This document shows, piece after piece, positions 3,754-7,958 of a DNA stretch of 64,000 nt. A program made the translations under genes and the position numbers. Origin of the DNA: Pseudomonas allokribbensis (lineage in GTDB: Bacteria > Pseudomonadota > Gammaproteobacteria > Pseudomonadales > Pseudomonadaceae); NCBI RefSeq assembly GCF_014863605.1, contig NZ_CP062252.1:5681501-5745500 (forward strand). The letters are read 5' to 3'. Within the stretch, counting starts at the first letter, position 1. Every line of letters begins with the position of its first letter. The notes beneath the pieces are model-generated. The model was not told where the DNA came from. It saw nothing but the letters and a program-made list of their open reading frames with translations, and did no database searches.

Positions 3754-3774
3754 TAACCAGCTAGTACAATTTAA
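3754..3774 (+). promoter_or_regulatory. aroQ promoter/operator sharing a motif with quiC
   Basis: Reads TAACC-N3-TAGTACA-N-TTTAA. The same 21 positions occur on the minus strand at 7938-7958 upstream of quiC with three mismatches. TACAAT (3765-3770) is a plausible -10 hexamer, so a protein bound at TAACC-N3-TAG would overlap the promoter. The nearby TetR regulator is the obvious candidate ligand. Confidence 0.6.
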
Positions 3775-3807
3775 CTCCACAGGTCGAAACCCTCGACCCA
3801 AGCCAAA

Positions 3808-3815
3808 AACAATAA
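3808..3815 (+). promoter_or_regulatory. Crc/Hfq-type CA motif in the aroQ leader
   Basis: AACAATAA fits the AANAANAA consensus bound by Hfq/Crc in Pseudomonas catabolite repression. It directly abuts the purine-rich AAGTGGAG used as aroQ ribosome binding site. Confidence 0.55.
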
Positions 3816-3830
3816 GTGGAGTTTGCCCCC

Positions 3831-4271
3831 ATGCCCCCTATCGTTCTGGTGCTCAACGGCCCGAACCTGAACCTGCTCGGCACCCGTGAACCGGCGACCT
3901 ACGGTCACGAAACCCTGGCCGACATCTCTGCCCTGTGCGGGCGCGCCGCCGAAGAATTCGGCCTGGCCGTGGAGTTTCGCCAGACCAACCATGAAGGCGA
4001 ACTGCTCGACTGGATTCACGGCGCCCGCCAGCGCTGCGCCGGCATCGTCATCAACCCGGCCGCCTGGACTCACACTTCGGTAGCGATCCGCGATGCCCTG
4101 GTCGCCAGCGAATTGCCGGTGATCGAAGTGCATCTGTCCAACGTCCACGCTCGCGAGCCGTTCCGTCATCACTCGTTCGTCTCGGCCATCGCCACGGCCG
4201 TGATGTGCGGCTTCGGCAGCCACGGTTATCGCCTGGCCCTGGAACATTTCAGCCAGCGTCTGAAGGGGTGA
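3831..4271 (+). CDS. aroQ: 3-dehydroquinate dehydratase, type II
   Basis: Interconverts 3-dehydroquinate and 3-dehydroshikimate. 146 aa, the usual length of a type II enzyme; the start at MPPIVLVLNGPNLNLLG is chosen over one five codons upstream because AAGTGGAG precedes it. LNGPNLNLLGTREPATYG carries the flexible-loop residues (R, Y); EFRQTNHEGELLDWIH, NPAAWTHTSVAIRDAL and EVHLSNVHAREPFRHHS hold the substrate-binding and catalytic histidine motifs. It is followed at once by a shikimate dehydrogenase homologue and lies near quiC, so this copy probably serves quinate/shikimate catabolism rather than aromatic amino acid synthesis. Confidence 0.95.
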   Translation: MPPIVLVLNGPNLNLLGTREPATYGHETLADISALCGRAAEEFGLAVEFRQTNHEGELLDWIHGARQRCAGIVINPAAWTHTSVAIRDALVASELPVIEVHLSNVHAREPFRHHSFVSAIATAVMCGFGSHGYRLALEHFSQRLKG

Positions 4272-4276
4272 ACCGC

Positions 4277-5156: not shown

Positions 5157-5164
5157 GATACCGA

Positions 5165-5842
5165 TCAGGCCTGCAGGTAACGCAGCACCGACTCGCAAAT
5201 CATTTCGCGATGACGCTGCTTGATGGTTTCGTCCGGCAGGTCGATCTGAAAGATCTCACCGAACGTGTGGCGGTTCGACACGCGATAGAAGCAGAACGAA
5301 CTGATCAGCAGATGCACGTCCAGCGCATCGAGCCCGGCCCGGAACACACCTTCAGCGGCACCGCGCGCCAGGATCTCGCCCAGCGAATCGAGGATCGTGT
5401 TGTTCATCGCCTTGATCGCATCGGAACGCTTCACGTATTCAGCGTTGTGGATGTTTTCGATGCAGACGATGCGCACGAAATCGACGTTGCGATCGTGGTG
5501 ATCGAAGGTGAATTCCACCAGGCGCCGGATCGCTTCCACCGGCGGCAGCTCGGCCAGGTGCAGACGGCTTTCGGTGCTGCGGATATCGCCGTAGAGCTTC
5601 TCCAGCACCTCGACGTACAACTGCTCCTTGCTGCCGAAGTAGTAATAGATCATGCGCTTGGAGGTGTGGATACGCTCGGCGATCGCGTCCACGCGAGCAC
5701 CGGACAGGCCCTGCTGGACGAACTCGACGATCGCTTCCTGGAGGATGTTTTCGCGGGTTTTTTCCGGGTTGTTCTTGCGACTCTTGCGCGGCTCTACCGC
5801 TGGTAAAACGGGGGCTGCGGAAAGTTCTGAAGTCATTGTCAT
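5165..5842 (-). CDS. TetR-family transcriptional regulator (quinate/shikimate region)
   Basis: 225 aa. Residues ~28-75 form the TetR helix-turn-helix (TRENILQEAIVEFVQQGLSGARVDAIAERIHTSKRMIYYYFGSKEQLY). The C-terminal two thirds is an all-helical ligand-binding and dimerisation domain. It lies 102 bp downstream of quiC on the same strand and could be co-transcribed with it. Its position between the aroQ operon and quiC makes it the best candidate to bind the motif shared by their promoters (3754-3774, 7938-7958). Related TetR regulators with the KSRKNNPEKTR-type N-terminus occur beside quiC in other pseudomonads. Confidence 0.88.
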   Translation of the reverse strand: MTMTSELSAAPVLPAVEPRKSRKNNPEKTRENILQEAIVEFVQQGLSGARVDAIAERIHTSKRMIYYYFGSKEQLYVEVLEKLYGDIRSTESRLHLAELPPVEAIRRLVEFTFDHHDRNVDFVRIVCIENIHNAEYVKRSDAIKAMNNTILDSLGEILARGAAEGVFRAGLDALDVHLLISSFCFYRVSNRHTFGEIFQIDLPDETIKQRHREMICESVLRYLQA

Positions 5843-5944
5843 TGCGGGCTCACGGCCATCACTGCACAGGCTGGCGATTATGGGCCGCGCGCCCCAGCGA
5901 AGGAAGCCGCGCGACCCGTGTTTAATCCCGCGTTTACGAATTTC

Positions 5945-7846
5945 CTACAACTTCGCCTGGCGAACAGCGCCACTGCGTGCTTTGGCCATTGCCGCCAGTC
6001 GCACCGCGACATTGGCCGCGCCATAACCGGCGTAACCGTTCTTGCGCTGGATGATCTCGAAGAAGAAGCGCCCTTCGAACGGCTCGGTGTAGACGTGGAA
6101 CAACTCGCCGCCCTGAGCATCACGGTCGTAGAGCACGTTGTAGTACGCCAGTTCGCTGAGAAACTCGTCATCGAAATCGAAACGCGCCGCGAGATCATCG
6201 TAATAGTTGAGCGGGATATCCAGCAGCGGTACGCCCGCCTCTTTGGCACGGCTGACCTGAGCAAAGATGTCATCGCAGTCGAAGGCGATGTGATGCACCC
6301 CGGAACCGCGATAACTCGACAGCGCGTGTGAGATCGCGGTGTTGCGGTTCTCGGAAATGTTCAGCGGCAAGCGGATCGAACTGTCGCGACTGCGCAGCGC
6401 GCGACTCTTCACCAGACCGTACGGATCCGGCAGCACCACTTCGTCGTCGGCCTCGAAATCCAGCAGGCTTTTGTAGAACAGCACCCAACTGTCGAGGCTG
6501 TCCGCCGGCAGCGCCATGGCCATGTGATCGATGCGTTTGAGGCCGCCGCGAGCCACCGCATCCGGCAGCAGATTGAAGTCGGTGCCGTAGACATCCGCCT
6601 CTTCATCCACCAGATAAATCAGGCTGCCATCCGGCGCACGCACCGCTGCGAGTTCCAGCTCGTTGGGGCCGACCAGTCCGCGATACGGCTGACCTTTATA
6701 GGCAACGGCGCGGGCCAGCGCACTGGCGCTGTCCTTGACCCGCACGGCGGTGGCGCACAGCGACGGGCCGTGGGACTCGAAGAAACTGTGGGCGAACGAG
6801 TAAGGTTCGGAGTTGAGGATCAGGTTGATATCGCCCTGGCGCAGCAGGCTGACGCTCTTGGAGCGATGCTGCCCAGCCTTGACGAAACCCAGTCGCTCAA
6901 GCCAGTTCGACAGTTTGGCGCCGAGCGCTTCGTCGACGGCAAACTCAAGAAACTCGATGCCGTTGTAGGCGCTGGCCTTCGGCGTCTCGAAGAGGATTTC
7001 GCGGTTATCCACAGGACGGATGTCCTGCTCCAGACGCTGGCGGGTTTTCTCCTCCAGATACAGCAGCGAACGCAGACCGTCAGCCGCATTGGCCCGAGGC
7101 GGCGCGGCACGGAAGCCGTCGTTGAAGATTTCCAGCGACAGCGGCCCGGTGTAGCCGCTCTGGATGATTGGCGCGAGGAAGCCCGGCAGATCGAATTCAC
7201 CCTGTCCCGGGAAGCAGCGGAAATGCCGGCTCCACTCCAGCACATCCATCGCCAGGATCGGCGCGTCGGCCATTTGCACGAAGAAAATCTTGTCGCCGGG
7301 AATCTCGGCAATCGCCCGTGGATCCCCCTTGAGCGACAAGGTGTGAAAGCTGTCGAGCAACACGCCGAGGCTTGGGTGATCGGCTTGGCGCACGATGTCC
7401 CAGACCTGTTGATAAGTATTGACGTGACGACCCCAGGCCAGCGCTTCATAACCGATGCGCAAGCCACGGGCGCCAGCGTGCTCGGCCAGCAGGCGCAGGT
7501 CATCGATGAGGATCTGTTGATCGCCGATACTGTCAGGGGAGGCGTTGCTGCACACCAGCACCAGGTCGGTGCCCAGTTCCTGCATCAGATCGAACTTGCG
7601 TTCGGCCCGCTCCAGGTTGCGGTCCAGACGATCGCGGCGGCAGCCTTCAAAATCGCGGAACGGCTGGAACAGGGTGATGGCAATCCCGAGGTCGGCGCAC
7701 ATCTGCCGGATTTCCCGGGGACTGCCGTCGTAGTACAGAAGGTCGTTCTCGAAAATCTCCACCCCGTCGAACCCGGCCGCGGCAATGGCTTCGAGTTTTT
7801 CCGGCAGGGTTCCGCTCAAGGAAACGGTGGCAATGGATCGCTGCAT
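5945..7846 (-). CDS. quiC: 3-dehydroshikimate dehydratase QuiC (TIM-barrel + HPPD-like fusion)
   Basis: Converts 3-dehydroshikimate to protocatechuate, feeding the beta-ketoadipate pathway. 633 aa with two domains. Residues ~1-280 are a sugar-isomerase-like TIM barrel in which the metal ligands known from the P. putida enzyme are at the expected positions: E134, D165 (with H168), Q191 and E239. Residues ~290-620 are a 4-hydroxyphenylpyruvate-dioxygenase-like VOC region with a complete-looking metal triad (RIDHMAMAL, VHHIAFDCDD, FFEIIQRKNGY). It is divergent from the MFS transporter gene and upstream of the TetR regulator. Confidence 0.96.
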   Translation of the reverse strand: MQRSIATVSLSGTLPEKLEAIAAAGFDGVEIFENDLLYYDGSPREIRQMCADLGIAITLFQPFRDFEGCRRDRLDRNLERAERKFDLMQELGTDLVLVCSNASPDSIGDQQILIDDLRLLAEHAGARGLRIGYEALAWGRHVNTYQQVWDIVRQADHPSLGVLLDSFHTLSLKGDPRAIAEIPGDKIFFVQMADAPILAMDVLEWSRHFRCFPGQGEFDLPGFLAPIIQSGYTGPLSLEIFNDGFRAAPPRANAADGLRSLLYLEEKTRQRLEQDIRPVDNREILFETPKASAYNGIEFLEFAVDEALGAKLSNWLERLGFVKAGQHRSKSVSLLRQGDINLILNSEPYSFAHSFFESHGPSLCATAVRVKDSASALARAVAYKGQPYRGLVGPNELELAAVRAPDGSLIYLVDEEADVYGTDFNLLPDAVARGGLKRIDHMAMALPADSLDSWVLFYKSLLDFEADDEVVLPDPYGLVKSRALRSRDSSIRLPLNISENRNTAISHALSSYRGSGVHHIAFDCDDIFAQVSRAKEAGVPLLDIPLNYYDDLAARFDFDDEFLSELAYYNVLYDRDAQGGELFHVYTEPFEGRFFFEIIQRKNGYAGYGAANVAVRLAAMAKARSGAVRQAKL

Positions 7847-7937
7847 GTTTCAACTCCCGGTGGAGACTTCGGCTACGAGGATTGCGCCGCTTTTATAAGG
7901 TGAGCGAATTATTGGTCCCGGTTTTTCATTGAGCAAT

Positions 7938-7958
7938 TTAAACTGTACTACCCGGTTA
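7938..7958 (-). promoter_or_regulatory. quiC promoter/operator sharing a motif with aroQ
   Basis: On the minus strand it reads TAACC-N3-TAGTACA-N-TTTAA, 18 of 21 positions identical to 3754-3774. TACAGT (7942-7947) fits a -10. The centre is also an imperfect palindrome (ACTAACCGGGTAGT), as expected for a TetR-type operator. Confidence 0.6.

Follow-up and report, generated by a model that had tools for sequence, protein, structure and literature searches.

PcaU, a regulator of the IclR family, controls the pca-qui genes in Acinetobacter, and QsuR of Corynebacterium is a LysR-type regulator of quinate/shikimate utilisation; QuiR of Listeria, also of the LysR type, is reportedly induced by shikimate. 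Here we describe a predicted operator system in a 64,000-nucleotide stretch of the Pseudomonas allokribbensis genome (contig NZ_CP062252.1, positions 5,681,501 to 5,745,500; hereafter the window). Two related 21-mers, TAACCAGCTAGTACAATTTAA at 3754-3774 (+) and TAACCGGGTAGTACAGTTTAA at 7938-7958 (-), identical at 18 of 21 positions, lie upstream of aroQ and quiC, respectively. The reading that we strongly favour is that they are operators of the TetR-family protein encoded between them at 5165-5842, which would bind as a dimer on the dyad of the site, block or hinder the two promoters, and be released by a metabolite. Such a protein would share with QuiR and QsuR the role of a dedicated regulator of quinate/shikimate utilisation, while belonging to a family unrelated to the LysR type. 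It resembles the local catabolic repressors of the TetR family (PF00440 with PF17938) in being a one-component helix-turn-helix (HTH) regulator that adjoins the operons it would control, with dyad operators that overlap or abut promoters and, by analogy, an expected release by a metabolite; it differs in falling far under the cut-off of the named NCBIfam equivalogs that it matched.

The sequence-only reading of the window had reported the motif, and both its coordinates and its sequence proved exact. Its placement upstream of aroQ and quiC was equally accurate, with the sites ending 56 nt and 91 nt before the respective ATG codons. When the window was scanned at up to three mismatches the two 21-mers were the sole matches, and two matches were obtained in none of 100 shuffles. 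The same scan of the whole 6.57-Mb genome again returned only these two. A control with the reversed pattern also gave two matches in this genome, so that the number of matches is little proof in itself; the weight lies in their position, both being at promoters of a single pathway.

Conservation was assessed in 80 named Pseudomonas loci that were fetched through the TetR protein and represent the best 80 of 556 candidates. The operator profile was trained on sites of the same 80 loci, making its scores partly circular and its off-target rate less so. At a score of at least 20 the profile found 147 matches in 1.53 Mb, of which 145 lie upstream of quiC, aroQ or aroE and two are unassigned. Sites at this threshold precede quiC in 74 of 79 assessable loci, aroQ in 62 of 65, and aroE in all eight loci where aroQ is absent. 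The five quiC loci under the threshold score 16.5 to 19.2; two of the three such aroQ loci score 12.0 and 19.8, and the best match in the third (L160), at 10.2, has the opposite orientation.

The TetR protein is present in 257 of 298 Pseudomonas genomes. QuiC is missing too in 40 of the 41 genomes without it (21 of the 41 were identified as gaps in the list of TetR matches), and the remaining one has a partial QuiC match. At least one motif match with at most three mismatches was found in 251 of the 298 genomes, a loose criterion under which the reversed pattern also matched often. As a separate observation, the TetR-less genome G003 (L219, L227) matches QuiC (66% identity) over the first 269 residues only; the product may be a dehydroshikimate dehydratase of a single domain that is controlled in another way. 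Across the family, the TetR protein was found in 25 of 59 genomes, 22 of them outside Pseudomonas. Twenty of these 22 loci, from eight genera, were taken; some training loci may share genera with them, and the set is not fully independent. A site was found before quiC in all 20 (score 16.6 to 37; at least 20 in 16) and before every linked aroQ (14 of 14; score 17.3 to 36.7; at least 20 in 13). No convincing site was found for the 35% identical TetR protein of G398.

A second regulator, of the LysR type, is encoded beside aroQ in this genome, and the reportedly shikimate-responsive activator QuiR belongs to the same family. That this LysR protein binds the motif is nevertheless highly improbable: it is a neighbour in only 16 of 65 aroQ loci, 46 of the remaining 49, in which no LysR neighbour is recognisable, keep the site, and in alphaproteobacteria the core of the site adjoins the TetR gene. 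It was rejected as the reader of the 21-mer. One locus, L105, carries an aroQ-type operator beside LysR without a recognisable quiC or full aroQ and with only a fragment of aroE, possibly owing to a deletion or an assembly break. The sequence-only reading had instead named the TetR protein between the two operons as the natural candidate reader of a shared operator that relatives should retain. The motif is indeed kept before aroQ and quiC in the Pseudomonas loci and in eight other genera, and this conservation, together with co-occurrence with TetR and not LysR, supports a shared operator. On such comparative grounds the TetR protein very probably binds these sites.

The family profile is symmetric in the manner of the dyad operators of TetR-family proteins. 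Among 26 possible dyad centres the best lies between site positions 7 and 8 (TAACYRG/TTNGTAC; z 3.9 against column shuffles), with a runner-up at 5.5 (z 3.2), and symmetric variants of the site occur in alphaproteobacteria and at quiA. An imperfect palindrome had been claimed for the quiC copy itself; in the window that copy is weakly palindromic, and the symmetry is instead a property of the profile and of more symmetric variants in relatives. A TetR dimer would sit on the dyad between positions 7 and 8. In the protein, the HTH stretch S61-F69 is invariant among 18 orthologues.

Ten alphaproteobacterial plasmid loci with TetR proteins 41 to 59% identical to that of the window were compared (two drawn from 10 entries and eight from 45, chosen because they were annotated). 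Shikimate dehydrogenase, quiC or aroQ lies within the stretch in eight of the ten, in L294 only as BLAST matches lacking annotation, and genes of a tripartite ATP-independent periplasmic (TRAP) transporter lie near TetR in seven. The dyad core KWACYRNNYRGTWM occurs exactly in the TetR-facing gap of six loci, where 0 to 3 of 300 shuffles did as well. Two of these six, L084 and L085, helped to define the core; among the remaining eight loci four are exact. Cores with one mismatch were found in the TetR-facing gaps of L294 (equalled in 31 of 300 shuffles) and L292 (16 of 300). On the dctP side the cores are weak, being equalled in 135 of 300 shuffles for L084, 27 for L293 (one mismatch) and 15 for L085. 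Sinorhizobium meliloti carries AAAATGTACTAACTAGTTCGG, compared with the Pseudomonas consensus AAAATGTACTAACYGGTTA on that strand. Two of these loci have further features: at L294:167-2757, unannotated quiC- and aroE-like BLAST matches, possibly decayed genes, spread over several frames beside an intact-looking TetR gene, and in L292 the 41% identical TetR protein adjoins sugar ATP-binding cassette transporter genes, so that an almost identical operator may serve related TetR proteins in other pathways.

Further members of the predicted regulon came from eleven third sites in other Pseudomonas genomes, which were picked for recurrence, other single matches with three mismatches being mostly left aside. 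Seven lie upstream of quiA and four upstream of a TRAP transporter. All seven quiA genes encode a membrane pyrroloquinoline quinone (PQQ) dehydrogenase 85 to 87% identical by BLAST to the quiA of this genome, which lies outside the window; family assignment was tested with TIGR03074 on one quiA locus, and for the TRAP family on two of the four. The quiA promoter was compared in 30 loci, the best among 89 genomes that gave a match. The symmetric sequence TAACYRNNYRGTTA occupies one fixed place in all 18 loci of the lineage of this genome (itself and 17 close relatives), exactly in 16 and, in the other two, with at most one mismatch to the looser dyad pattern used for the scan, and TGTACYAACTTGTTA is present in all 12 loci outside this lineage. 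The operator at quiA occurs in both orientations. The copy at quiA in this genome (L223:3940-3960) is the symmetric variant and was missed by the 21-mer search. These variants, and the GTAC...GTAC form in some alphaproteobacteria, suggest that the half-sites are interchangeable, as expected for a dimer. The predicted regulon includes quiA, through the symmetric variant here, and in other genomes the TRAP transporter.

At the two promoters of the window the predicted operators are placed differently: at aroQ the predicted -10 falls within the site, whereas at quiC the site only borders on the predicted -35 (Table 1). The -10-like TACA(A/G)T noted within the motif by the sequence-only reading is plausible at aroQ, as TTGATT-N15-TACAAT, and TACATT or TACAAT lies inside the site at all 72 aroQ/aroE sites in relatives. 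At quiC the idea did not hold, and the 21-mer was rejected as a -10 element; the promoter there is probably the conserved sigma-70-like pair TTGCTC-N17-AATAAT downstream. Among the 75 quiC sites in relatives, 69 have an exact AATAAT downstream, 50 of them at offset 24 and 19 at offset 23, preceded at a distance of 16-18 nt by a TTG hexamer. These data also bear on the view that the motif is no operator but a core-promoter or sigma-factor element common to both genes. Its TACAAT/TACATT at aroQ and the conserved aroQ -35 TTGAC would fit; a separate conserved -35/-10 pair downstream at quiC, a genome-wide specificity too high for a promoter element and the presence of both orientations at quiA make it most improbable.

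With the 21-mer as a TetR operator, the arrangement at aroQ-aroE, where it occupies the spacer and extends over the predicted -10, would allow bound TetR to block RNA polymerase. At quiC the operator lies directly upstream of the predicted -35, its dyad centre near -51, and is flanked on the side away from the promoter by a PcaR-type box near -72; bound TetR would hinder polymerase or a bound activator. The same TetR protein on the same operator might instead be chiefly an activator, at quiC and possibly at further promoters, with aroQ the only one that it represses. A dyad centre near -51, immediately upstream of conserved -35/-10 elements, is an activator-type position, and the TetR-family protein Pip (PA0243) is a reported positive regulator of phenazine genes in passages of PMC9736018 and PMC3684763. 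However, the operator covers the spacer and -10 at aroQ, which is a repressor position, an activator would more naturally use the PcaR-type box that lies farther upstream of quiC, and most TetR-family members are repressors according to PMC9736018. We regard the activator alternative as unlikely, and judge that the TetR protein likely represses. Its release would probably follow the accumulation of a pathway metabolite, and quinate, shikimate or 3-dehydroshikimate is, on balance, the probable inducer; aroQ-aroE, quiC-tetR and, in this genome, quiA would then be switched on.

The PcaR-type box at quiC points to a second input. PcaR and PcaU are IclR proteins with a different motif from that of the TetR family, and the likeness to these systems lies in the box in the intergenic region between quiC and a major facilitator superfamily (MFS) transporter gene, beside the TetR operator. 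An IclR-type box (at most one mismatch) is found within 100 bp upstream of all 75 quiC sites and of 62 of 72 aroQ/aroE sites, with only 65 matches to the pattern on both strands of the whole genome, and the pca cluster of this genome carries PcaR and similar boxes. These observations could mean that a PcaR/IclR-type regulator is the main controller, its site including the 21-mer as an accessory half. Against this, the box and the 21-mer are distinct sequences, the 21-mer core stands beside TetR in alphaproteobacteria, and the strict PcaR core RKTCGATWATCGSAY from the P. putida consensus (PMC8222616, Table 1), at up to one mismatch, fits quiC (69 of 75, the box at 7966-7980 exactly) but not aroQ (10 of 72). 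This explanation is very unlikely. The boxes at aroQ and quiC may be read by the PcaR/PcaU-like IclR protein encoded at 10524-11300 (-), which scores 112 bits against a family cut-off of 285; a further IclR-type box with one mismatch lies at 10470-10484, upstream of an EamA-type transporter gene (9500-10378). In four other loci a TetR-type operator stands near the start of a 74-77% identical orthologue of the IclR gene (L199:14780-14800, L200:14538-14558, L202:13399-13419 and L149:3711-3731), an arrangement that suggests a regulator cascade; no operator copy is found near the IclR gene in the window.

Table 1. Genes and predicted regulatory elements around the two 21-mers (window coordinates)
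Feature	Position	Strand	Remarks
LysR gene	2778..3689	+	upstream of aroQ, same strand; considered and rejected as site reader
IclR-type box GTGCGATCACCGCAC	3701..3715	+	before aroQ; no strict match to PcaR
Predicted aroQ -35, TTGATT	3744..3749	+	TTGAC at 68/72 aroQ/aroE sites in relatives
Predicted TetR-type operator, aroQ-aroE promoter	3754..3774	+	dyad centre between 3760 and 3761; profile score 34.8
Predicted aroQ -10, TACAAT	3765..3770	+	inside operator; 15-nt spacer, short
aroQ, type II 3-dehydroquinate dehydratase	3831..4271	+	DHquinase_II/TIGR01088
aroE-like shikimate dehydrogenase	4277..5131	+	PRK12549 type; likely one operon with aroQ
TetR regulator, 225 aa	5165..5842	-	proposed operator reader; starts 102 nt after quiC end, same strand
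quiC, 3-dehydroshikimate dehydratase	5945..7846	-	NF042435, 1285 bits (cut-off 1200)
Predicted quiC -10, AATAAT	7908..7913	-	17 nt after -35
Predicted quiC -35, TTGCTC	7931..7936	-	1 nt after operator
Predicted TetR-type operator, quiC promoter	7938..7958	-	dyad centre between 7951 and 7952; profile score 29.1
PcaR-type box GTTCGATAATCGCAC	7966..7980	-	exact to core of P. putida PcaR consensus
MFS transporter gene	8120..9457	+	divergent from quiC; intergenic region shared with operator and PcaR-type box

The TetR protein itself matches PF00440 (TetR_N) with 49.5 bits (cut-off 24) and PF17938 (TetR_C_29) with 163.9 bits (cut-off 26.2). Against the listed NCBIfam TetR equivalogs it stays far under every cut-off, the best being RutR with 54 bits (cut-off 368), and the nearest sequence in the PDB, 3npi, comes from a TetR protein to which no role is assigned.

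PA0243, or Pip, encoded between a quiC homologue and aroE/aroQ2 in the gene order also seen here, may be the orthologue of this TetR protein; attempts to confirm this failed. Both published PA0243 primers are absent from 20 family loci, the forward primer has a single match in 25 genomes, at an unrelated locus lacking TetR and the reverse primer, and none of the 120 homologues listed for the P. chlororaphis protein bears the name Pip. In P. chlororaphis 14D6 a 90% identical TetR protein is encoded in the same locus, and this strain and three related ones have the operator pattern at quiC and aroQ. The one strain taken as phz-positive (G272 = G574, inferred from matching contig coordinates) has an extra operator site at a quiA-like gene. 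No operator was found at the phz genes of this strain at up to two mismatches, a search that did not include the symmetric variants.

In the passages of the literature that deal with it, Pip, the 'phenazine inducing protein' described in P. chlororaphis and, as PA0243, in P. aeruginosa, is a TetR regulator that promotes pyocyanin (PMC9736018) and acts above phzI/phzR (PMC3684763, PMC6060551, PMC7683790), and RpoS acts on phzA2 through it (PMC13104628); the function and targets of PA0243 were called unknown in a passage of a 2016 paper (PMC5175280). Pip is thus like our protein in family, and differs in being a published positive regulator of phenazine genes, with no role in quinate metabolism in those passages. 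We consider it possible, while leaning slightly against it, that this TetR protein is Pip, that the original role of Pip is control of quinate/shikimate breakdown, and that its phenazine effect is partly indirect. Loss of Pip would then derepress QuiC, and this enzyme would withdraw 3-dehydroshikimate on its way to chorismate, from which phenazines are made. Expression of phzR restores phenazines in a pip mutant, according to a passage of PMC3684763, which argues against a pure precursor drain.

Several observations weigh against the favoured reading of these sites as TetR operators. A general promoter scan called neither the aroQ nor the quiC promoter, the 15-nt aroQ spacer is short for sigma-70, the quiC copy of the window has little palindromic character, and its position at about -51 would equally suit an activator. 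Pip, if it is this TetR protein, promotes phzI/phzR expression in work quoted in a passage of PMC3684763. The profile scan found no operator copy beside tetR itself in the window, and autoregulation would therefore have to proceed via the quiC promoter. Among the alphaproteobacterial loci, Neorhizobium L291 has no operator despite a 53% identical TetR protein, and L293 has no core in the TetR-facing gap, where TetR directly follows GntR and leaves no room. The neighbours of TetR in L292 are not pathway genes, and this sole core-bearing locus without one has a weak match; no locus convincingly shows the operator retained with TetR where the pathway is absent. Because the L292 match is weak, the argument for TetR is built on adjacency and co-occurrence, on dyad symmetry and on the conserved HTH, and not on an operator that outlives the pathway. 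The sites, their conservation, their co-occurrence with TetR and the regulon members were established by computation.

The system is of an ordinary kind and its regulator comes from a well-known family; the operator and the regulon are newly defined, and the link to Pip is putative. Among the papers listed by full-text literature searches, with subscription papers outside their coverage, none described this operator. The analysis gives a concrete operator and a predicted regulon (aroQ-aroE, quiC, quiA and the TRAP transporter) for a TetR protein found in 257 of 298 Pseudomonas genomes and in rhizobia, and the protein with its operator could be used as a sensor component when the shikimate pathway is engineered. 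Quinate and shikimate are widespread in plants, and QuiC takes its substrate from the same pool that supplies the aromatic amino acids and phenazines. If this TetR protein is Pip, a regulator known mainly by its phenazine phenotype would gain candidate direct targets, and the operator and regulon would make this reading of the phenazine link directly testable.

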